From: a virus
IMG/VR virus record: IMGVR_UViG_3300042465_004152
Location: 1-39,789 of that record
DNA length: 39,789 nt
Strand: one strand, 5' to 3'
In this document: piece by piece, positions 2,825 to 35,790 of the stretch
How the letters are laid out: every line of letters starts with the position of its first letter
How positions within the stretch are numbered: position 1 is the stretch's first letter
Program-made: the position numbers and the translations under genes
The notes under the pieces: model-generated
Seen by the model: the letters and a program-made list of their open reading frames with translations, nothing else
The model's database searches: none
Told to the model about the DNA's origin: nothing

Positions 2825-4374
2825 GCCGCCGTGCCGCCAAGCGTAATCGGGTTGTGATGGCGTCAACGGCTGATCTTGTGCCGCCCGCCGGCGGATCCTT
2901 TGGCGCTTCGACCGGCCTATATCCAGACCCGCAAGAGAGCGGGCAACGTGGCTGGCGTCCGACACTCAACAAAGACGCGACGGAGTTCCTGAAACAGCAT
3001 CGCCACGCCGCGATGATTTCCGACGGGCGCTATATCTACAGCGGCTCCGGGATGGTTTCAGGCGCGACCCGCAAGCTTGCCAACTACGTCGTTGGGGCTG
3101 CATGGGCTCCGCTTTACATGGGCGCAGACGACCGATTCCGAGCCTCCACCAAGCCGCTTCTGGCGCGCTGGGCCAACCTCTGCGATTTGCGTGGAGGCGT
3201 GTACGACTGGCGCATGGGGCTGCGCCTTGCGTCCATCTGCATGGATCGGGACGGCGACGTGTTTGCCATCAAACGCATCACGCCTGAGGGATCCCCGCGC
3301 ATTCAGTGGCTAGAGGCGCACCGGGTAGGAAGTCCGACGCTTGGCTACTCTGGCGTCCAAACGGTTCCAAAGACTCCGGAAACCGCAGGCTACGAAGGTC
3401 GCTTTGTGTCCGCTGGCGTCATCATGGACGATGACATGAAGCCGGTCGGGTACAACATCCTGCCGCCGTCTGCGGACCGTTACACGAATCACAAGTGGAA
3501 CATCTACCCCGCTTCGGATGTCGTTCACTTCTTCGATCCTGAATGGCATTCGCAGGCCCGTGGAATCCCGTCTGTGATTCGCGCCGTGCTTGATTGGTAC
3601 GACTTGGGCGAGACGCGCGAGGCTGAAAAGATCGGCATCAAGGCTCGCTCTTCAATCGCCTACATCGAAAAGAACGACGCCGGACGCGCTCCCGCTTCTG
3701 CCCTCGGCGGAGGCAATCGCAACACCAGCACGGAGCCGCAAACGCAGACCATTGCCCGCGGCTTGATTCGATACATTAAGGCGTCCGGAGAGATCACCAG
3801 TCTCGACAACAACAAGCCAGGCGAGGCGTGGCAAAGCTTCATGGAGTACATCACCCGCGGAGCATTCGCCGGGATGGACCTCCCTTATGAGTTTGCGTGG
3901 GACGCGTCCAAGCTCAACGGCACAAGCGTTCGCTCCATGGTTGGGCAGGTGCAGCGTGCTGTCGACAACCGCATTGCCGTCATGCACAAGCCGGCAGCCG
4001 CGCTTCTGCAATGGGCTGTCGCGGTCTACATGAGCCGCGGCTATATCCCGTTCGCGGAAGATTGGTGGAACTGGGATTTCAGCACGCCGCCGAAGTTCTC
4101 TGTGGACATCGGGCGCGACAGCCAGAACCGCCGCGAGGACTTCAACGTCGGAATCCGCACGCTTTCCGACATCGTTGGCGAAGATGGCGGAGACGTTGAA
4201 AGCCATTGCCGCGCAAGGGCTAGCGACTACCTGACGGCGCAGAAGGTGGCAGAAGAGATGAAGGTTCCATTCTCGGCCATTATCAATCCGTCCGGAACGT
4301 TTGGCGATACTGCCGACGCTGCGGTTTTGGAAGCCGCGCAAACAATCCAACAAACGCAGGAGGAGCAACCTTGA
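2821..4374 (+). CDS. Portal protein, lambda gpB family
   Basis: The portal forms the ring at the unique capsid vertex through which DNA enters and leaves, and it docks the terminase. At 517 residues it is close to lambda gpB. Family features include an early NYVVGAAWAPL segment, a DGDVFAIKR strand near residue 142, and YPASDVVHFFDPEW followed by ARGIPSV at about 229-247, a hallmark of this portal family. A clip/stem helix with NGTSVRSMVGQVQRAVDNR lies near 362-380. The start overlaps the upstream stop (ATGA) and the stop overlaps the protease start (TTGA), so head genes appear translationally coupled. Confidence 0.93.
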   Translation: MSRRAAKRNRVVMASTADLVPPAGGSFGASTGLYPDPQESGQRGWRPTLNKDATEFLKQHRHAAMISDGRYIYSGSGMVSGATRKLANYVVGAAWAPLYMGADDRFRASTKPLLARWANLCDLRGGVYDWRMGLRLASICMDRDGDVFAIKRITPEGSPRIQWLEAHRVGSPTLGYSGVQTVPKTPETAGYEGRFVSAGVIMDDDMKPVGYNILPPSADRYTNHKWNIYPASDVVHFFDPEWHSQARGIPSVIRAVLDWYDLGETREAEKIGIKARSSIAYIEKNDAGRAPASALGGGNRNTSTEPQTQTIARGLIRYIKASGEITSLDNNKPGEAWQSFMEYITRGAFAGMDLPYEFAWDASKLNGTSVRSMVGQVQRAVDNRIAVMHKPAAALLQWAVAVYMSRGYIPFAEDWWNWDFSTPPKFSVDIGRDSQNRREDFNVGIRTLSDIVGEDGGDVESHCRARASDYLTAQKVAEEMKVPFSAIINPSGTFGDTADAAVLEAAQTIQQTQEEQP

Positions 4375-5477
4375 ACCAATTCTATAACATCCGCGCAGCC
4401 GCCACCGAAGGCGCTCCAAACGAGGTTTTCATCTATGATGAAATCGGGTTCTGGGGCACCACGGCGCAGACGTTCCACAACGCGATTCAAGCGTTGAGCG
4501 GCAAGATCGTCGTTCGCATCAATAGCCCCGGCGGAAACGTGTTCGACGCCATCGCGATTCACTCGATGCTGTCGCGTTTGCCTGACGTGGAGACCGTCAC
4601 CGATGGGCTCGCCGCTTCCGCCGCTTCCGTGATCTTTGCCGCCGGCAAGGTGCGCAAGATGGCCAAGGCCGCGTTTGTCATGATCCACAATCCTTGGTCC
4701 TACACCCAAGGCAGCGCGGACGACATGCGCAAGGAAGCCGACATTTTGGAAGGCATCACCAACGCGCTCGTGAAGCTCTACAGGGGCTCCTCTTCCAAGT
4801 CAGAGGAGGAGTTGCGCGAGATGATGGACGAAGAGACTTGGATGGATGGCGACGCCGCGCTTGCCGCCGGCTTCGCAACCGAGGTCTTCGACGCTCCAGT
4901 CGCCAAGGCTAGCGTTCGCTCTGACCGCTACAGCCGCACCCCAAAATCACTTTTGGCACCGATGAACGGAGCCGAAAAAGCAGGAGACAACAGCACCATG
5001 AAGGAAAAGATTCTCGCCCTGTTGGGCGTTGAAGCTACAGCCCGCGAGACGTTCCTCGTGGGTGCCTTTGCCGCGCTCGGCGTGGACGATAAGGCAATCG
5101 AGAAAGCGCAGGCGTCCGGAGATCAGAACTTCCTCTCCGTCCACGTCGAGGCGCGAATCACCGACCTGAACAACAAGCTGGCCGCCGCGGAAGCGCGAGC
5201 CAACGCGCAGGAAGGAATCGCCAAGGCGTTTCTGGATACGGCAGGGGTGAAGACCACGCCCAAGGACGCCGCCGAGGCCAAGACGCTTTTCGCGTCCGCC
5301 ATCAAAACCGCAGCTTCCAAGGAGGCTGCCGAGATCCTCGCTTCGCAGGGTCAGACCAAGCCGGTCGACAATGCGCGAGCCGAGGCGAACACCAACCACT
5401 CTCCCGCTGCGGTCGGATTGGACCGCGTGGAGGCCGCGCTTCGCGCCCGTCGCGAGGCTGGCAACAGCAACAACTAA
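4371..5477 (+). CDS. ClpP-like head maturation protease with scaffold-like C-terminus
   Basis: This 368-residue protein probably processes prohead proteins. Residues ~15-175 are a ClpP/S49-type fold: SPGG at 52-55, the nucleophile motif GLAASAAS with probable catalytic S83, and MIHNP with probable catalytic H106. The third residue is not certain, though acidic residues near 158-161 or 174 are candidates. Residues ~210-368 are alanine-rich and helical like a scaffold, resembling the lambda C/Nu3 arrangement. The start is TTG 4371, preceded by a strong GGAGGAG at 4359-4365 and overlapping the portal stop as TTGA. An in-frame ATG at 4998 may start a separate scaffold. Confidence 0.9.
   Translation: MNQFYNIRAAATEGAPNEVFIYDEIGFWGTTAQTFHNAIQALSGKIVVRINSPGGNVFDAIAIHSMLSRLPDVETVTDGLAASAASVIFAAGKVRKMAKAAFVMIHNPWSYTQGSADDMRKEADILEGITNALVKLYRGSSSKSEEELREMMDEETWMDGDAALAAGFATEVFDAPVAKASVRSDRYSRTPKSLLAPMNGAEKAGDNSTMKEKILALLGVEATARETFLVGAFAALGVDDKAIEKAQASGDQNFLSVHVEARITDLNNKLAAAEARANAQEGIAKAFLDTAGVKTTPKDAAEAKTLFASAIKTAASKEAAEILASQGQTKPVDNARAEANTNHSPAAVGLDRVEAALRARREAGNSNN
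4998..5477 (+). CDS. Possible nested scaffold protein (Nu3-like internal start)
   Basis: An ATG at 4998 lies in frame inside the protease gene and has AGGAG at 4982-4986 upstream, although the spacing of about 11 nt is long. It would give a 159-residue protein identical to the protease C-terminal part. That part is rich in alanine, lysine and glutamate, predicted helical, and ends in a charged RARREAGNSNN tail. Lambda and relatives make their scaffold (Nu3) in this way. No separate scaffold gene is visible before the capsid gene, which supports the idea. This is inference from layout. Confidence 0.45.
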   Translation: MKEKILALLGVEATARETFLVGAFAALGVDDKAIEKAQASGDQNFLSVHVEARITDLNNKLAAAEARANAQEGIAKAFLDTAGVKTTPKDAAEAKTLFASAIKTAASKEAAEILASQGQTKPVDNARAEANTNHSPAAVGLDRVEAALRARREAGNSNN

Positions 5478-6932: not shown

Positions 6933-7346
6933 ATGGGCACAAAGACAAGCAAGCTGACGTTGATGACTGCCGGTCAAGTTGACCCGGCGAACGATTACAT
7001 CCCCATCGTTGACGCGTCGGCAGGTCTCACCAAGCGCATCAAGATCGCGGACCTCACGGATACGGTAGAAAGCACCGAAAAACTCAAGGCTTGGACCTTG
7101 TCTGGAGCCTACAGCCTGACATCAGCGACAAGGGACGCCGACGATGTTGTGACCACGGCGACAGTTTCGTGGCCAGACGGGAGCACTGGGACGTTCACAA
7201 GAACCTCCAAAAACCCCGTGTTTCTGACGATTGACTCTTACACCATCACGCACACAGCAAGCGGCAAGACGATTACGCAGCCCACTGTCACTCGCAACGC
7301 AAGCGGATCAGTTACCATTCAGCCCGTCCTCACAATCACGGTATGA
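6933..7346 (+). CDS. Virion protein, tail-fibre-like N-terminal motif
   Basis: This 137-residue protein begins with KLTLMTAGQVDPANDYIPIV and continues DASAGLTKRIKIADL, a pattern common at the base of phage fibre and baseplate-spike proteins. The rest is beta-rich and threonine/serine-rich (residues ~55-137), with repeated short strands. The start is ATG 6933, just after the strong hairpin; no clear ribosome-binding site is visible and the frame is open further upstream. Its stop overlaps the esterase-fibre gene (ATGA at 7343), suggesting a joint structure. Function beyond 'fibre-associated' is not supported. Confidence 0.6.
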   Translation: MGTKTSKLTLMTAGQVDPANDYIPIVDASAGLTKRIKIADLTDTVESTEKLKAWTLSGAYSLTSATRDADDVVTTATVSWPDGSTGTFTRTSKNPVFLTIDSYTITHTASGKTITQPTVTRNASGSVTIQPVLTITV

Positions 7347-9679
7347 GCGTACTAAGCGCACCGGTCGATCCAGCAATCTCCCGCGGCATCCAGCGGCTTC
7401 CAGGCGCTGGCTTTGCGTGGTCCACTCAGATGCCGGGAGTCTCGCGGTTCCCGGCGCTGACGATTGCAAACACCCTGACTGGATGGGGATTCTACGCTGG
7501 CACAACTACCGCAGCTTTCGACCGGCTAACGATTCCATACTTCAGCAGCCAACCGGGTTACGCGCCCAACTCAATCCTCGTCCGCATTCGCGCCGTCAAT
7601 GTCAGCGGCGCGATACTGGCGACTGGAACGGGCGCTCTTGAATCAGACCTGAACGTCCAGCTATTCACTACGGTTCAGCTCAACGCCTCAATTCCTTCAG
7701 GCTCTGAAATCTTCGTCGAGTTCTTCACCAACGGGCGGACTCAATTCTACGACCTGACACTGATCGGCAGCGTTCCGGTTTTCGCTACTCCGACATTCCC
7801 GCAAACCCACCACTCGCTGGGAATCAATACGTCTTCACCGGCGTCATTGATTGCGTCCTCCAATCAGCGGCTTTTGCTGTTCTGGGGTTGGGCACCTGAC
7901 GGCGGGGCTAGTGTTGCGGAACTTAGCCCAAGGCTTGCCTCTCCAGTCTCGCGGCTTCTCAAACGACTTGGATCGTTCCAGCCGGGGCTCACGGAAACGG
8001 CGAGCGTTGGCGTGGCATCGTGGGCAAGCAACGTTGCCGGCTCCACGTTCTCCGGTCACGGGTCGTATATCGGGAATCAGACAACGGCCTTTGACTCTAT
8101 ATCCCTTCTTCTCTGGTCGTTCAATTCCAACAACGTCCCGCGCAGAGGCGTTGTCATCATTCGGCAAATGCCGACGGACGAAACGACATGGGGAACAACC
8201 AACCCAAGCACGTGGCCAATAATCGCTAGGTCAGAGGAAACTTGGCTTGGTTGCAGATTCCAGGAGTGGCGCGAAGTCACGTTTCAGCTAGACCGATCGG
8301 TCAGCGGTCACGTGTGGTTTGAGGTGACGACCGACGGCTTTGTAGGTCTGTCTGGAACGCTCGGCGGAACGGCAACCCCAACCATTGCCGCGCCTCCGAA
8401 ATCACATTACACGACAGGCGGCAGCCTTGGGATTCAACGCACTTGGCTTGATCACACTGTCCACCAGACGCTCTGGTGTCGCGTTGGCCTGTCAAACTAC
8501 CTGGGCGGATTGTTCGAGCCTTCGGCGGAATTCCGCAACCGCATCGCGTCCACGCTTTCGATAACCCCGACGGTTTCCATCAAACTCCCAACGAATGCGG
8601 CAAACATCCTGCCAGCGCTGGAAGGTCGGGAGTTGAACGTCTATCTGGACAACGTCATCTATGCCAGCGTCCCGCTGTCCAACCTGTCCGTCGTCGTTAC
8701 ATGCACGAAAGGCACGCAGTTTGAGGGCGTATGGCGCTATACTCCGACAAGCTCGGACGCCGGCACCACCACGTTGACGATCACCGTATGGACGCACGAC
8801 CACACGACGCAGTTGGCAACGGCGTCCTGCACGTTGAAGACCGTTGCTCTGACACACCCGACGACGGCCGTCTCGCGCAAGGTGCTGTTCATTGGCGACT
8901 CTACGTTTGCGGACCTTGGCGTCATTCCCGAAGTCGTGAACCTGTTTTCCAGCGACTCCAAGTATTCGCTGACACTGGTCGGCAGCAACCAGGGTAACGG
9001 GAATGATTCCGGGAGCACGTCGAGAGCCGTGGCAATGGAGGCAATCGGTGGGTGGAGCATTAACCGATTCTCGACCGACACGACCAGCGCGTGGACGCAA
9101 ATCAATGGAACGTCCCGCACTGGATCCCCGTTCCTCTTCTCTGGCAGCTTCAACTTCGCCAGCTATCTATCCGCTCAATCTATCACGCTCGGGTCTGGTG
9201 ATTGGGTCATCATCAATCACGGCATCAATGACGTGTTCAGCTTCCTCACGGACGCAACGGTGAACGCTGCGATAACAAACGCAGCCTCTCAACTCGCGTC
9301 GTGGATCACGTCGATAAAAGCAGCGGTTCCGGGAATCCGGATCGGCATTTGCATGACGATTCCGCCCACCGAATCGCAAGACGCGTTCGGAACCAACTAC
9401 CCCAATCTCCAGTGGCGCAAGCGGTACCTTCGCAATCTGCACCTTTGGCACACGCATTTACTGAGCGCATACGACTCCGTCATCGTGGGGCAAGTAACCC
9501 TTCTGCCCTACCACGCTCCAGTTGACACGGTGAACAATTTCCCGCTCACGTCTCGCGTTTTCAACGCCAGAAACTCTGGAACCTACATGCGGCAAACCAA
9601 CGCTGTTCACCCGATCAATACCGGATACTGGCAGCTAGCTGATTTCCTGCGCGGCTACCTGAAGGCAATCGAAGCCTGA
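7343..9679 (+). CDS. Tail fibre/tailspike with C-terminal SGNH esterase domain
   Basis: This 778-residue virion protein probably binds and trims surface glycans. Two beta-sandwich-like segments (about 25-145 and 215-340) resemble each other: both have a G-x-Y-x-GxxTTAFD segment and later a strand ending in SGxxxFxExxTxG, suggesting an internal duplication. A C-terminal SGNH/GDSL hydrolase starts near residue 510 with FIGDST (nucleophile S520), followed by HGIND at 626-630 with the GxND block. The last block reads NAVHP (N753, H756), where the usual Asp of DxxH is Asn. Such domains usually remove acetyl groups from sugars. The gene is coupled to the upstream gene by ATGA. Confidence 0.8.
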   Translation: MSVLSAPVDPAISRGIQRLPGAGFAWSTQMPGVSRFPALTIANTLTGWGFYAGTTTAAFDRLTIPYFSSQPGYAPNSILVRIRAVNVSGAILATGTGALESDLNVQLFTTVQLNASIPSGSEIFVEFFTNGRTQFYDLTLIGSVPVFATPTFPQTHHSLGINTSSPASLIASSNQRLLLFWGWAPDGGASVAELSPRLASPVSRLLKRLGSFQPGLTETASVGVASWASNVAGSTFSGHGSYIGNQTTAFDSISLLLWSFNSNNVPRRGVVIIRQMPTDETTWGTTNPSTWPIIARSEETWLGCRFQEWREVTFQLDRSVSGHVWFEVTTDGFVGLSGTLGGTATPTIAAPPKSHYTTGGSLGIQRTWLDHTVHQTLWCRVGLSNYLGGLFEPSAEFRNRIASTLSITPTVSIKLPTNAANILPALEGRELNVYLDNVIYASVPLSNLSVVVTCTKGTQFEGVWRYTPTSSDAGTTTLTITVWTHDHTTQLATASCTLKTVALTHPTTAVSRKVLFIGDSTFADLGVIPEVVNLFSSDSKYSLTLVGSNQGNGNDSGSTSRAVAMEAIGGWSINRFSTDTTSAWTQINGTSRTGSPFLFSGSFNFASYLSAQSITLGSGDWVIINHGINDVFSFLTDATVNAAITNAASQLASWITSIKAAVPGIRIGICMTIPPTESQDAFGTNYPNLQWRKRYLRNLHLWHTHLLSAYDSVIVGQVTLLPYHAPVDTVNNFPLTSRVFNARNSGTYMRQTNAVHPINTGYWQLADFLRGYLKAIEA

Positions 9680-23164: not shown

Positions 23165-23430
23165 GAGATTGAAGCGCGAGAGGGATTTGATACCCACATT
23201 TCCCGGCAGGCCGGGGTCTTGATTAGAGGATCGCGCATTGTATCCCGCCGCGCCGTGAGGCCGATTACCGTTATTTCTGGGAGCCAACTCAATGCCGATT
23301 CACTACGGCAACCCTGGGTGATGGCTGGGCTCGGCTTTCTGCGCGGCGGGAAATTGAATGCTGCCGTCCCGGCTGATGGTCGTCCGCGTCCGAACGAAGC
23401 TCAGTAGTTCCGGCGCACCGGCAGCAAAAA
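23165..23430 (-). other. Gap between leftward genes
   Basis: This 266-nt stretch lies between the Tad2-like gene and the gene starting at 23164. On the minus strand it holds a TACAAT hexamer (forward 23237-23242) that resembles a -10 element but lacks a clear -35 partner. It also holds a CCCGGC/GCCGGG inverted repeat at 23202-23215. A 49-codon minus-strand frame that may or may not be coding is listed separately. Otherwise I see nothing definite. Confidence 0.4.
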
Positions 23431-23438
23431 TCAATCAC
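23289..23438 (-). CDS. Doubtful small Cys-containing frame
   Basis: A GTG at 23438 overlaps the end of the Tad2-like gene and opens a 49-codon frame whose product begins MIDFCCRCAGTTELRSDADD. The CCRC start hints at a zinc knuckle, but the rest is arginine-rich low-information sequence. The overlap style matches real genes in this phage. It could equally be a chance frame. Confidence 0.25.
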   Translation of the reverse strand: MIDFCCRCAGTTELRSDADDHQPGRQHSISRRAESRAQPSPRVAVVNRH

Positions 23439-23739: not shown

Positions 23740-23806
23740 ACGGACGCGCATACTGCCCACCCTGTTCCCTCTTGTCAACAGCGTTTCCGCGTGGCAACGT
23801 CCCGCC
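23740..23806. promoter_or_regulatory. Divergent promoter/operator region of the switch
   Basis: The 67-nt gap separates the leftward Tad2-like gene from the rightward XRE regulator. On the minus strand TTGACA (forward 23773-23778) is followed after 17 nt by CAGTAT (forward 23750-23755), which would place a start site close to ATG 23739. On the plus strand TTGCTT at 23726-23731 and CATACT at 23749-23754 are also 17 nt apart. The two candidates overlap, as expected for a switch where one regulator affects both directions. The -10 hexamers are imperfect. Confidence 0.4.
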
Positions 23807-24013
23807 ATGGGCGAATTGCAGAACAGGATTGCCGCAATCAAGCGGGCGATGCGGAAGACGAAACTCGGACAGAACGAAGTCGCAAGGCGCGCAGGCGTCG
23901 CGAAAAGCACCGTTTCACGCATCTTGAACGGCGAGCGTTCACCGAGTGCGAAGATTTTGTTCGCGTTGGAAGCCGTTGCATTGCGAGCGGTTGCGATGGT
24001 GTGTGAAAAATAG
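23807..24013 (+). CDS. XRE-family helix-turn-helix regulator (Cro/CI-like)
   Basis: This 68-residue protein is a compact five-helix XRE domain: helix 1 QNRIAAIKRAMRKTKLG, then NEVARRAGVAKSTVSRILNG (helix-turn-helix, about 23-42) and ERSPSAKILFALEAVALRAV. It has the size of Cro-like repressors and no C-terminal cleavage or oligomerisation domain like CI. It starts at ATG 23807 and faces the Tad2 operon, so it probably controls the divergent promoters. A full-length CI and an integrase are not seen. Confidence 0.8.
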   Translation: MGELQNRIAAIKRAMRKTKLGQNEVARRAGVAKSTVSRILNGERSPSAKILFALEAVALRAVAMVCEK

Positions 24014-24078
24014 GTGTTGCCAGATGGGAACGCTGAATGCATTGTCAGCACGTCAACGAAACGCACAACGAAAGACAC

Positions 24079-24277
24079 TATGAGCAAGACATACACCTAC
24101 GCCACCGACTGCGCATCCGGCACCTTGGTCGCTGCAAGCCTCATTGACGCATACTGCATGCTGGCCGTGAAAATCTCCCATGAGCAAATCGCGGATGGTG
24201 CAACTCTCTGGGTCGAGGACGATGAGACCGGAGACCGTTTGGTAATGGGGCGCGATGGATTGATGATTGCCGTTTGA
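24079..24277 (+). CDS. Small protein of unknown function
   Basis: This 65-residue protein starts at ATG 24079 (a GTG at 24014 in the same frame would add 22 residues but directly abuts the regulator's stop). It has an N-terminal SKTYTYATDCASGTLVAASL segment and an acidic LWVEDDETGDRLVMGRDG hairpin. It is not recognised and shows no membrane segment. It is the first gene downstream of the regulator in the rightward early region. Confidence 0.5.
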
Positions 24278-24319
24278 TTTCCCTGTTGCCAATCGTCAAC
24301 ACTTCGACATCATCACCCC

Positions 24320-24490
24320 ATGACACCTATCCCCCTTTACACCGGCCAAGCCGCCAAGGCTGCCCGTCTCGCCCTCGGTTGGCGTCGCGTAGCTTTGCGC
24401 GCTGTCATCCTTGACCGCGTGTCCGCTGACCACGCCGAGGCTGCCAATCTGTTCAGGTTGGCGCGGTCGATCTGGAGCGGTTCTGTTTAA
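24320..24490 (+). CDS. Small helical protein, 56 aa
   Basis: A 57-codon frame from ATG 24320 gives a basic, alanine/arginine-rich protein: YTGQAAKAARLALGWRRVA, then LRAVILDRVSADHAEAANLF and a final helix. The composition suggests a small helical DNA- or protein-binding peptide, possibly with a helix-turn-helix. There is no obvious ribosome-binding site. It is immediately followed by the candidate structured RNA. Confidence 0.45.
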   Translation: MTPIPLYTGQAAKAARLALGWRRVALRAVILDRVSADHAEAANLFRLARSIWSGSV

Positions 24491-24497
24491 CACTTTT

Positions 24498-24631
24498 CGC
24501 CGTCACCCGTAAGGACATAGGTGGTTGACTGAGCCCAACCTGTTGTTGGGCCTCATGGGGCGGGTGACGGCGTTCAATTTCCGCAACCTCGAAAACTGTG
24601 GAGGGGTTAGGGAGTGAGTAGGGGTTGCGGA
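24498..24631 (+). ncRNA. Candidate structured RNA with two long stem-loops
   Basis: This non-coding stretch (gap 24491-24645) holds two strong inverted repeats. In the first, 24498-24509 (CGCCGTCACCCG) pairs perfectly over 12 bp with 24561-24572. It encloses an inner hairpin, 24533-24539 with 24545-24551 (GCCCAAC/GTTGGGC, 5-nt loop). GGTTG at 24523-24527 could instead pair with CAACC at 24536-24540, giving an alternative fold. In the second, 24580-24590 pairs with 24621-24631 over 11 bp with one wobble and a 30-nt loop. A 20-codon frame from ATG 24555 (MGRVTAFNFRNLENCGGVRE) crosses the region. No T-run follows either stem. Confidence 0.5.
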
Positions 24632-24645
24632 TTACTTTCTGACAT

Positions 24646-24807
24646 ATGGACCAAGCATCACAACAATGGATCGTAGCGATGGGCGGGCTTGTGATCGTGA
24701 CAGCAGCCCTGGCTTGCCTCGCGGTCAACATGGCAATGAAACGCGCCGAGGCTTACCGAAAATCCGCGGAGTACTGGCGCAACCTCGCAAGGGGGCAGCA
24801 TGATTGA
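24646..24807 (+). CDS. Small single-span membrane protein, 53 aa
   Basis: A 54-codon frame at ATG 24646 directly follows the structured RNA region. The product has a hydrophobic segment at about 8-30 (WIVAMGGLVIVTAALACLAV) and a basic helical tail (KRAEAYRKSAEYWRNLARG) that should lie in the cytoplasm. Its end overlaps the next small membrane gene by 8 nt. The pair may act together. Function unknown. Confidence 0.55.
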   Translation: MDQASQQWIVAMGGLVIVTAALACLAVNMAMKRAEAYRKSAEYWRNLARGQHD

Positions 24808-24943
24808 GGTCTTGCAATGGCTGCTCTTCATCGGCGCAAACGCGCTGGTGATCTACGTCGCAACGCGTCGGGCTGAGAACGTCAGGCGCAATTCGTTCAA
24901 ACATCTTTTGCCCATCGGGGGCGCATTCAAACAGGTCAAATAA
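24800..24943 (+). CDS. Small membrane protein, 47 aa
   Basis: A 48-codon frame from ATG 24800 has AAGGGGG upstream. The product starts with a hydrophobic helix (VLQWLLFIGANALVIYVATR, about 4-23) followed by a basic tail with RRAENVRRNSFKHLLPIGGA. It overlaps the previous membrane gene by 8 nt and ends one base before the next gene's ATG. Function unknown. Confidence 0.55.
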   Translation: MIEVLQWLLFIGANALVIYVATRRAENVRRNSFKHLLPIGGAFKQVK

Positions 24944-32070: not shown

Positions 32071-34260
32071 ATGGACTACAATCAATTCATAGACGGGAAG
32101 CGGAAGTCACACAAGGCGTGCGGATTTGATCCAGAGCCGTTCACTGTTCCGCTGTTCGACTGGCAGAAGTTGATCGTCGCGTGGGCTGTAAGGCTCGGGC
32201 GCGCCGCACTGTTCGAGGACTGCGGACTTGGGAAGACGGCGCAGCAACTTGAATGGGCTAGCCAAGTGTTTAGGAAGACAGGTAAGTCGGTTTTGATCCT
32301 AACCCCGCTTGCGGTAGCGGAGCAGACGGTTGCCGAGGCTTCCAAGTTTGGCGTGACGTGCTCCTTGGTTGAGTCTGAGGAACAGATCCAGAGCGCCGGC
32401 GTCTACGTGACCAACTATGAGAAGTTGGACGCCTTCTCTACGCACGAGTTCGCCGGCGTTGTCCTGGATGAATCCAGCATCCTGAAATCGTTCACGGGTA
32501 AGACGCGTCGAGAGTTGACCCGGCGATTCTCAACTACGCCGTATCGCCTTTGCTGCACCGCGACACCATCGCCAAACGATTATACGGAACTCGGGCAACA
32601 CGCGGAGTTCCTTGGGGTATGCACGCCCAATCAGATGCTTTGCACGTTCTTCATTAACGACACCTTCAACACTGGCGACTGGCGACTGAAGAAGCATGCC
32701 GAGGGTGAGTTTTGGAAATGGCTTGCGTCATGGGCTGCGTGCATCGCCAGGCCGTCGGATATTGGATTCAGTGACGACGGTTACGACCTGCCAAGGTTGG
32801 ATCTCAAGACTGTCATGGTGGACGTGGATGAAGCGGAAGGGAGAGGTGAAGACCTGTTCCGGATTGCCACACTGTCCGCGACAACCATGCACAAGGAGAT
32901 GAGGCTCACGTCAGACGCGAGAGCGTCAGCGGTTGCGGAAATGGTGAACCAATCGACCGAGCAGTGGGTTGTATGGTGCAATACCAACGACGAGGCGGAC
33001 GCGCTTTCTGAGAAAATTCCGGACGCTGTGGAGGTGCGCGGGTCGGATACAGCAAAGGCGAAGCGCGCAGCATTGCACGCCTTCCTCACCGGAACCGCTC
33101 GCGTGATCGTCACCAAGCCGTCAATCGCAGGATTCGGGCTCAACTGGCAGCACTGCAAGAACGTCGCCTTCGTCGGCCTGTCGTACTCGTTCGAGGACTT
33201 TTACCAAGCACTCAGGCGAACGTATCGGTTCGGCCAGAAGCGAGAGGTGAACGCCTATATCGTTCAAGCGAGGACCGAGGGCGCAATCATTCGATCCATT
33301 CAGACCAAGATGAAGCAACACGCGGACATGCAATCAAATATGAAGAAGGCAGCACTGGAACTTAGGTTGATCAAGAGCAAGGACGCCGTGGAAAAGACGG
33401 ACATCGACGTTTATAAGGGCGATGGGTGGGAGGTGCATCACGGGGATTGCGTCAGGGTGGCGAAGACCATCCCGGACCACTCCATCAGCATGTCCGTATT
33501 CTCTCCCCCATTCGCAGACCTGTTCACATACTCGTCAGACCTTCAGGATATGGGGAACTGCGAGAGCATGGACGAGTTCATGAAGCAGTTTGATTTCCTG
33601 ATCGCTGAAATCGCCAGAATTATGAAGCCTGGGCGCGAGGTATGCGTTCACTGCGTTGACCTGATCTCCACCAAGTGGAAGCATGGGCGCATCGAGCTTC
33701 AGGACTTCTCTGGCGCAATCGTGAGGGCGTTCTGGCGTCACGGGTTCCTGTTCCATTCGCGAATCACGATCTGGAAAAGCCCGGTTACTGAGATGCAGCG
33801 CACCAAGGCGCACGGACTGCTTTACAAGACGCTCTGCGCAGACTCGTCCGATTCACGCGTCGGAGTCCCGGACTATCTGCTTGTGTTTCGTGCTCCGGGA
33901 GAGTGTGTGGACCCCGTGACGAAGGATAGGTCCAAGTATCCCGTGGATTGGTGGCAGGAGGTGGCGAGTCCGGTCTGGATGACGGTTGACCAAGGGCGAG
34001 TGCTGAATGGCGAGGGCGCGAGGGATCACCGAGACGAGAGGCATATATGCCCGCTTCAACTGGACGTGATCGAAAGGGCTGTGGAGTTGTGGAGTAATCC
34101 CGGCGATCTGGTGTACAGCCCTTTCACAGGCATAGGTTCCGAGGGTTATGGCGCGGTCAACCTCGGCAGGAAGTTTATCGGGTCTGAGTTGAAGGAAAGC
34201 TACGTGGAGCAGGCGGTGGCGAATCTGCGGAACGCGAAGAGTCAGTTGAGCCTGTTTTGA
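32071..34260 (+). CDS. Fused SNF2-type helicase and DNA adenine/cytosine methyltransferase
   Basis: This 729-residue protein joins two enzymes. Residues ~25-430 are an SF2/SNF2-like helicase: GLGKTAQ (52-58), VVLDESS (130-136), CCTATPSPND (161-170) and the C-terminal motif QALRRTYRFGQKREV (379-393). Residues ~445-729 are a DNA amino-methyltransferase of the beta class, with motif IV SPPF at 478-481 first and the SAM-binding motif I PFTGIGS at 684-690 near the end. SPPF suggests N4-cytosine or N6-adenine methylation. No nuclease motif is seen, so this is not a full restriction system; it may modify or remodel phage DNA. It overlaps nothing and starts two bases after the HTH gene. Confidence 0.88.
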   Translation: MDYNQFIDGKRKSHKACGFDPEPFTVPLFDWQKLIVAWAVRLGRAALFEDCGLGKTAQQLEWASQVFRKTGKSVLILTPLAVAEQTVAEASKFGVTCSLVESEEQIQSAGVYVTNYEKLDAFSTHEFAGVVLDESSILKSFTGKTRRELTRRFSTTPYRLCCTATPSPNDYTELGQHAEFLGVCTPNQMLCTFFINDTFNTGDWRLKKHAEGEFWKWLASWAACIARPSDIGFSDDGYDLPRLDLKTVMVDVDEAEGRGEDLFRIATLSATTMHKEMRLTSDARASAVAEMVNQSTEQWVVWCNTNDEADALSEKIPDAVEVRGSDTAKAKRAALHAFLTGTARVIVTKPSIAGFGLNWQHCKNVAFVGLSYSFEDFYQALRRTYRFGQKREVNAYIVQARTEGAIIRSIQTKMKQHADMQSNMKKAALELRLIKSKDAVEKTDIDVYKGDGWEVHHGDCVRVAKTIPDHSISMSVFSPPFADLFTYSSDLQDMGNCESMDEFMKQFDFLIAEIARIMKPGREVCVHCVDLISTKWKHGRIELQDFSGAIVRAFWRHGFLFHSRITIWKSPVTEMQRTKAHGLLYKTLCADSSDSRVGVPDYLLVFRAPGECVDPVTKDRSKYPVDWWQEVASPVWMTVDQGRVLNGEGARDHRDERHICPLQLDVIERAVELWSNPGDLVYSPFTGIGSEGYGAVNLGRKFIGSELKESYVEQAVANLRNAKSQLSLF

Positions 34261-34464
34261 AAACTCCGGTTTGCACATTCTACCCGCGTAGATAGAAACG
34301 CGACGTCAGCGCAAGGTCCTGAGAAGCCGAGCGAAGACCAACGAAAACTGTAGAATGAACACTTTCCCCGCCCTGTGGCGCAAACCATCGCGTGCTGTTT
34401 TCGGGCACCCGCTGCCTTTTTGGCCGCGATTTCTCAGGCGTCACGGCGGCGGGATTTTTAATTC
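34261..34464 (+). other. Leader region, related to that at 35290-35487
   Basis: This 204-nt non-coding stretch follows the methyltransferase gene and precedes the PP-loop gene. It shares ordered blocks with 35290-35487: GGTTTGC.CATT, GTCAGCGCAAG (34305-34315), GAAAAC..AGAATGAA and CGCGTGCT.TTTCG, then ends at an ATG. It contains an inverted iteron pair, TCTAC and GTAGA (34279-34283 and 34288-34292). A weak hairpin (34404-34416) followed by five T residues could terminate the upstream operon. No open frame covers it. It may carry a promoter or a structured leader. Confidence 0.55.
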
Positions 34465-35226
34465 ATGAATCCAATCATTGTCGCCTTCGGCGGAGGCGCA
34501 AACTCCACGGCCATGCTGGTCGAGATGCACCGCAGAGCCATCCAGCCTGACCTCATCATGTTCGCCGACACCGGTGGAGAGCGTCCCGAAACCTACGACG
34601 CCGTTTCCATGGTGGACCTTTGGTGCCGTCGCCAATTCGGGATCGGTGTTGAGGTTGTTCGCAAGACCTACCAAGGGAAACCGGAGACGCTTGAGGAGAA
34701 CTGCCGGCGAATGCAGATGCTCCCGTCCATCGCCTACGGGTTCAAGTCGTGCTCCCTGAAGTACAAGGTGGATCCGCAGGACAAGTTTACGAACCATTGG
34801 AAGCCCGCGCTGGAATGCTGGGCGAGCGGCGGGAAATGCGTGAAGTGGATCGGCTACGACGCCAGCGAGGAACGTCGCGCAAAGATCCGCGATGACGCCA
34901 AGTACGTTTACCGCTACCCGCTTATCGAATGGGGCATTTACCGCGAGGACTGCGTTGCCATCTGCCAATCCGAGGGGCTGCCGTCCGCGAAATCATCCTG
35001 CTTCTTCTGCCCATCCATGAAGCGGCACGAGATCACCCAACTCGCCAAGGATCACCCTGACCTGATGCGCCGAGCATTGGATATGGAGGCGCGAGCAAAC
35101 CTAACGAGCATCGCGGGCCTTGGTCGGTCGTTCTCGTGGGCGTCATTCCTGCGCGGCGAGGCGGCACAGGCCCGCCTTTTTGAGGACCATGAGGTGCCGT
35201 GCGGGTGTTATGATGGTGGAGATTAA
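34465..35226 (+). CDS. PP-loop (PAPS-reductase-like) ATPase
   Basis: This 253-residue protein belongs to the PP-loop ATP-pyrophosphatase superfamily (PAPS reductase/DndC-like). The N-terminal loop reads AFGGGANSTA (7-16), a variant of SGGxDS/T, then FADTGGERPETYD. Conserved cysteines follow: SCSLKYKVDP near 94-103, SCFFCPSMKRHEI near 178-190, and CGC near the C-terminus. Such phage proteins may activate sulphur or nucleotides, for example for DNA or tRNA modification, but the substrate is unknown. It lies next to the helicase-methyltransferase, which suggests a joint role in DNA modification. Confidence 0.8.
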   Translation: MNPIIVAFGGGANSTAMLVEMHRRAIQPDLIMFADTGGERPETYDAVSMVDLWCRRQFGIGVEVVRKTYQGKPETLEENCRRMQMLPSIAYGFKSCSLKYKVDPQDKFTNHWKPALECWASGGKCVKWIGYDASEERRAKIRDDAKYVYRYPLIEWGIYREDCVAICQSEGLPSAKSSCFFCPSMKRHEITQLAKDHPDLMRRALDMEARANLTSIAGLGRSFSWASFLRGEAAQARLFEDHEVPCGCYDGGD

Positions 35227-35232
35227 ACCTTA

Positions 35233-35289
35233 AAGTAGATACCAAATATCTACTGGAGACGTTTGTAGATCACGGTAGATAGCTGTAGA
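35233..35289. repeat. Iteron cluster 1 (GTAGAT at 10-bp period)
   Basis: GTAGAT at 35235, a degenerate GGAGAC at 35255, GTAGAT at 35265 and 35275, and GTAGAC at 35285 are spaced in exact multiples of 10 bp. AGTAGATA and TATCTACT (35234-35254) form an inverted pair. By hand alignment 50 of 57 bases match cluster 2 at 35734-35790. One helical turn between sites puts all of them on one DNA face, as expected for an initiator-binding array. Confidence 0.8.
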
Positions 35290-35487: not shown

Positions 35488-35739
35488 ATGATCACAATCC
35501 CAAAACAGGACAAGACAACCATTTCACTCAACAGCGAAGGCCTCATTGCGATTGTGCAAGAGGACGACGCTGGTGAAACCCACACGGTTCTGGTGAATCC
35601 GCAAATGGCTGGAAGGCTTATCGAAGGAATCCAAGCCGCGGTTGAGGAGGTAAGATACGAGGCTGACCGCAAGTTTGAAGCCAGACTCTGCGTTGATGAA
35701 TCCGCAAAATCGCCTAAGCATAACAGCGCAAAGAAGTAG
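35488..35739 (+). CDS. Small protein beside the origin
   Basis: This 83-residue protein starts at ATG 35488, the point where the leader shared with the PP-loop gene ends; ATG 35347 is possible in the same frame but covers non-conserved leader. It has a beta-rich N-terminal half (TTISLNSEGLIAIVQEDDAG, THTVLVNPQMAGRLIEGIQA) and a basic lysine-rich end. It is enclosed by iteron clusters 1 and 2. It may be an origin-associated factor; no family is recognised. Confidence 0.55.
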   Translation: MITIPKQDKTTISLNSEGLIAIVQEDDAGETHTVLVNPQMAGRLIEGIQAAVEEVRYEADRKFEARLCVDESAKSPKHNSAKK

Positions 35740-35790
35740 ATATTAAATATCCACTGTAGATGTTTGTAGATCGCGGTGGATAGCTGTAGA
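35734..35790. repeat. Iteron cluster 2 (GTAGAT at 10-bp period)
   Basis: GTAGAT at 35736, 35756 and 35766, GTGGAT at 35776 and GTAGAG at 35786 follow the same 10-bp grid as cluster 1. The cluster overlaps the last codons of the small gene and ends 12 nt before the initiator gene's ATG 35802. It could serve as both an origin site and an operator for autoregulation of the initiator. Confidence 0.8.

Follow-up and report, generated by a model that had tools for sequence, protein, structure and literature searches.

A conserved, modular two-hairpin RNA structure at an early gene border of an uncultivated virus of bacteria

Introduction

What fills the 155-nt gap (24491–24645) between a 56-aa gene and two small membrane protein genes of an uncultivated virus of bacteria, and what might it do there? 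The window, by which we mean the whole stretch of DNA analysed, is a linear virus record of 39,789 bases. The initial annotation of this gap described an intergenic structured RNA, made up of a perfect 12-bp outer stem enclosing a 7-bp hairpin, and an 11-bp stem, with a GGTTG motif proposed to compete with the inner hairpin for the same CAACC and so give two mutually exclusive folds, and regarded the whole as a possible regulatory leader, non-coding RNA or attenuator. This interpretation is partly supported, with its core claim of a structured RNA backed by compensatory changes in related viruses and several of its functional suggestions losing ground.

Results

The gap is filled by two hairpins, H1 and H2, which together with three unpaired linkers lie on the plus strand, as do the genes on either side. 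Upstream, the 56-aa gene p24320 (24320–24490), present in five relatives and with no Pfam or PHROG match, ends in a TAA at 24488–24490, with the 7 nt of the 5′ linker CACTTTT (24491–24497) separating this codon from H1 (24498–24572). The two stems are correctly described base for base in the initial annotation, with the H1 outer arms CGCCGTCACCCG (24498–24509) and CGGGTGACGGCG (24561–24572) forming 12 Watson-Crick pairs around the 7-bp inner hairpin GCCCAAC-CTGTT-GTTGGGC (24533–24551; arms 24533–24539 and 24545–24551). Following the middle linker TTCAATT (24573–24579; CAATTT counting the next T), H2 (24580–24631) consists of an 11-bp stem (24580–24590 with 24621–24631), one pair of which is G-U, and a 30-nt G-rich loop. 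The 3′ linker TTACTTTCTGACAT (24632–24645), which holds no Shine-Dalgarno motif, reaches the ATG of a gene for a 53-aa small membrane protein with one hydrophobic segment (24646–24807), with a second gene for a 47-aa small membrane protein at 24800–24943. H1 is followed by TTCAATTTCC and H2 by TTACTTTC, neither of them a canonical U-tract, as had been noted.

The GGTTG motif is present at 24523–24527, however the alternative fold in which it pairs with CAACC has a pair probability of 0.003 and costs 1.7 kcal/mol in the window and 3.7 kcal/mol in the closest relative, L008. The motif is absent from the element of a third homologue, L025, and is not conserved outside L008. As the alternative pairing is both minor in the ensemble and not conserved, neither the mutually exclusive folds nor an attenuator is supported.

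Folding energy of the gap gives z = −2.9 (z = −3.6 for the minus strand), with other 130-nt windows of the record reaching −4.7, and the gap is inconspicuous in the folding-energy scan. Since its energy is matched or beaten at many sites of the record, structure prediction alone is insufficient to justify the finding. Perfect inverted repeats with arms of at least 12 nt within 120 nt number two in the window, compared with 0.28 expected from shuffles, and the one that is not H1 lies inside an open reading frame. The significance of the element thus comes from comparative data, with thermodynamics only modestly beyond chance.

Relatives were sought with the RecT protein (PF03837) and the upstream 56-aa protein as queries, yielding five contigs with a matching early region (L008/L021/L033, L025, L006/L022, L007/L023, and L024/L036). 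The large terminase is 97–98% identical to that of the window in three of these five, indicating that the late region is common to these phages and the early region mosaic. Comparison of the DNA with annotated phage records returned no match. Several candidates were set aside, with L009, L010, L012, L013–L015, L017, L019, L020, L026, L027, and L029 being unrelated DNA-pattern matches in viral_contigs, and L030 (a Pseudomonadales MAG) a chance match with no other gene in common. Only a 194-aa gene is common to the window and the L002–L005 group (L004 has one more gene in common with it), and the scanned members of this group have no such element.

The order p24320, element, 53-aa membrane protein gene is found in the window, L008, and L025, with L008 carrying an extra 88-aa gene between p24320 and the element. 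The gene directly before H1 is therefore p24320 in the window and L025, the 88-aa gene in L008, and a 63-aa membrane protein gene in L006, L007, and L024. Despite these differing upstream genes, H1 starts about 5–8 nt past a stop codon; at 6/6 plus-strand loci, a stop codon coincides with the start of the 5′ linker or lies within a few bases of it. The hairpin chain of L006, L007, and L024 is longer and comprises four hairpins, to which L007 adds an insertion and L024 further units. These homologous hairpins come after a small membrane protein gene and have other genes behind them, which makes it doubtful that the element is a leader serving the downstream membrane protein genes specifically, as first suggested.

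L008 retains the element in full, at 86% identity, with the flanking genes at about 81% and 75%. Eight stem substitutions distinguish it from the window, which break none of the 30 pairs and include two compensatory double changes; when eight substitutions were placed at random, all 30 pairs were spared in 169 of 200,000 trials. The H1 arms read CACCGGCACCCG/CGGGTGCCGGTG in L008, GCCGGCACCACC/GGTGGTGCCGGC in L006, L007, and L024, and GCCACCAACCCGA/TCGGGTTGGTGGC in L025. Aligned by hand on the flanking TTTT and linker (MAFFT misaligns the 3′ arms of the subtypes), six of the 12 H1 pairs change type across the window and five relatives, one of them occurring in three types, and none is broken. 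Swapping arms between loci leaves 7–10 pairs of 11–12, compared with all 11–13 in the native combinations. The initial annotation had looked to destroyed stems in related phages as evidence against a structured RNA; H1 proved intact at all six loci, whereas H2, kept in the window, L008, L006, and L024, is broken in L007 by a 3-nt deletion and a substitution in the 3′ arm. Whilst the comparison covers few loci, of which L006, L007, and L024 are not independent, their H1 stems being identical, paired bases of the related viruses have changed in concert, and the shape of the hairpins is probably kept by selection. Sequence is also retained in places, with CCAACCTGTTGTTGG of the H1 inner hairpin identical in L008 and L025, although the inner hairpins of L025 are arranged differently, placing this hairpin after H1 and not inside it as in the window.

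Every forward frame of the gap in the window is interrupted by stop codons, and substitutions between the L006 and L024 elements fall 6/13/12 by codon position, compared with 8/4/18 and 10/9/19 in the flanking genes. A protein-coding gene, including the open frame of the L006, L007, and L024 versions, was rejected on this absence of codon-position bias. No match to the window or its relatives came near the covariance-model gathering threshold of any Rfam 15 family, and ARAGORN found no tRNA or tmRNA; the element is a structure without an Rfam family. When only the long helices of plus-strand elements are counted, G-U outnumber A-C steps by about 11 to 1 (hand count), as expected of RNA on that strand, whereas across all helices of all elements the two are even (25 to 22). 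Every module is oriented along the surrounding genes. Taken together, the non-coding, conservation, orientation, and G-U data point to a transcribed RNA without proving it.

The unpaired linkers have A[AC]UUU in common, with a purine at position −2 of the U-run in 22/25 linkers and an A in 19/25. For the window linkers alone, A occupies this position in 5/7, compared with a background of 14% (P about 0.001). RNase E cleaves at the consensus RN|WUU, and its sites are more frequent around stop codons (PMC5222698). The linkers, including CACTTTT, match this consensus in a single-stranded segment, although the motif is weak.

Two further modules of the same layout are found in the window. The second, on the minus strand (23243–23426) in the leftward early region adjoining the HTH gene, separates a leftward gene that ends at 23431 from the leftward gene that follows, and reads TGA, TTTTT, hairpin H1m (23426–23359), TTCAATT, and hairpin H2m (23351–23243), its linker being that of the H1/H2 module. 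H1m is conserved in L021 and L023. The branched H2m is conserved in L021, L022, L023, and L024 (five phages with the window), with four doubly changed pairs; H2m could be a separate RNA in its own right. The third module (34276–34453, plus strand) consists of a hairpin at 34276–34357, the linker AACACTTTC, and a hairpin at about 34367–34453, followed by ATTTTTAATTC and an ATG at 34465, and ends in a terminator-like GGCGGG-ATTTTT ahead of a PAPS-reductase-like gene. It is about 98% identical in L034 and L036, and the gene downstream of it in the window was not found in the examined part of L036. Each of the three modules follows a stop codon, precedes the next gene and is oriented as the genes are, at a point where neighbours get swapped. 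A whole-window scan for hairpins with TTT on both flanks returns four, namely H1, H2, H1m, and the first hairpin of the third module; this count is no excess over control flanks, and it is the positions that matter.

The surroundings of the modules hold other features. Near-palindromic 16-mers conserved in relatives, GTTGCCACGCGGAAAC (about 23784–23799, minus strand), GTTGCCAGATGGGAAC (24017–24032, plus strand), and GTTGCCAATCGTCAAC (24285–24302, plus strand), are likely operators of the HTH regulator (about 23808–24013). Strongly conserved non-coding leaders lie at 24020–24090 and 24278–24320, ahead of two small genes, with the gene behind the first leader (24080–24277) swapped for a different gene in each relative inspected. 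A single 729-aa protein at 32071–34260 is a fusion of a SNF2-type helicase and a DNA N4/N6 methylase, and 57-nt GTAGATA-rich direct repeats (35233–35289 and 35734–35790) flank a small gene and are possibly a replication origin or the ends of a mobile cassette.

In L008 and L024 the element adjoins tandem arrays, of five units in L008 (3700–4190; vipr gene at 4194–4778) and three units in L024 (6620–6940; vipr gene at 6944–7528). Each unit consists of degenerate YNNGG (NNGGC) pentamers, then a small hairpin, then a linker of the element's kind, and the gene next to these arrays matches SUSP1 Vipr (PDB 36pp_D, E = 2e-30; PHROG_4652). On the strength of these pentamer units and the neighbouring gene, the arrays are very probably vrRNA arrays of the VIPR system, the vrRNAs of which contain 9–16 tandem YNNGG repeats (PMC13142463). 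The modules of the window score at most 9/20 for such repeats, and nowhere in the window does a site reach 14, compared with 14–18 in the L008 and L024 arrays. No significant match to the vipr gene was found in the window (99–100% in L033 and L036), which, compared with L008, represents this site in empty form. VIPR targets predicted by the skip rule gave no match above background among the records examined.

Discussion

The element is a real, conserved, modular RNA structure, and its function can only be inferred. The reading we favour, plausible if somewhat short of probable, is a module that lies between cistrons of the rightward early mRNA of a lambda-like phage and serves in its processing and stabilisation. 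Short unpaired A[AC]UUU linkers lie between and on either side of the two long hairpins. They resemble cleavage sites of the RNase E type, and it is within them that the transcript would be cut. H1 would then protect the upstream message from exonucleases at its 3′ end, with H2 placed immediately 5′ of the downstream gene, such that the two sides of the element could be expressed and degraded independently. An independent border of this kind would tolerate gene swapping on both sides.

This processing reading is favoured by the RNase E-like linkers near stop codons and by the precedent of the E. coli gal operon, in which a 3′ end made by RNase E is trimmed back to a hairpin that blocks the exonuclease (PMC11925234). 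As at galE, a hairpin would lie beside an RNase E cleavage in a polycistronic message and is proposed to seal the upstream message, however the window element comprises two large hairpins and three linkers, is phage-borne, and occurs at three sites, with cleavage predicted from the motif. The broken H2 of L007, the weakness of RN|WUU, the even overall count of G-U and A-C steps, and the lack of an excess of TTT-flanked hairpins all count against it. Furthermore, the branched H2m, the conserved CTGTT loops, and the four hairpins of L006 exceed what simple barriers to exonucleases would need.

We consider it unlikely that the element is a precursor of trans-acting small RNAs, with the linkers acting as processing sites from which H1 and H2 would be released as stable RNAs. 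The VIPR arrays of L008 and L024 have linkers of the same kind between their guide-RNA units, and in SUSP1 the VIPR RNAs occur as discrete ~100-nt transcripts (PMC13142463). The CCAACCTGTTGTTGG hairpin is conserved in the window, L008, and L025, as is the branched form of H2m in its relatives. These common linkers raise the small-RNA reading without establishing it. The VIPR system resembles the element in its structured phage RNAs and A[AC]UUU linkers between units, however a YNNGG repeat tract is missing from the window element, and a vipr gene from the window. Additionally, the rearrangement of hairpin content between relatives, as with CCAACCTGTTGTTGG in L025, speaks against this reading.

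The presence of one two-hairpin module in each early operon, rightward and leftward, around a Cro/CI-like HTH gene is reminiscent of the put sites of HK022. These two sites, putL and putR, are about 70 nt each, form two stem-loops downstream of PL and PR, are similar to each other in sequence, and suppress termination without proteins through the β′ zinc-binding domain (PMC9378689). A put-like nascent RNA would remain on RNA polymerase and carry it past early-operon terminators, and H2m does lie close behind a putative leftward promoter in L022 and L024. However, the window modules are longer (135 and 184 nt) with larger hairpins, and by inspection the left and right copies are alike in flanks and linker only, their hairpin sequences differing. 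A third module far downstream, and chains of at least four hairpins in relatives, would not be expected. Because the copies are unlike in sequence and the modules too many, we regard put-like processive antitermination as quite unlikely.

A transcription terminator or attenuator between early genes is improbable, for whilst the hairpins are GC-rich and precede T-containing linkers, and the third module ends in GGCGGG-ATTTTT, no U-tract directly follows the H1 or H2 stem, an intrinsic terminator pattern scan calls neither hairpin, and the competing pairing is weak and not conserved. Equally improbable is a boundary acting at the level of DNA, in which a conserved stretch would promote homologous recombination between mosaic phages and the hairpins would be incidental. 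Genes are swapped on either side, RecT and exonuclease genes lie near the element, and boundary sequences, likewise conserved stretches between swapped genes, have been proposed at mosaic junctions (PMC3029335). Recombination requires sequence identity, yet here structure is conserved through compensated changes in the stems, and the orientation is always that of the genes. Finally, it is very improbable that modules of the H1/H2 type act in trans as phage RNAs that are produced and processed like the neighbouring VIPR guide RNAs and form an additional, undescribed component of inter-phage conflict loci.

The window thus contains an RNA element supported by compensatory change. Modules of this layout occupy three gene borders of a single phage, where accessory genes, such as the VIPR system of two relatives, come and go. 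Should the RNAs act in trans, they would represent a new part for loci of phage-phage conflict. If the processing model is true, it would account for how genes in mosaic early operons remain independent of their neighbours once a swap has taken place.
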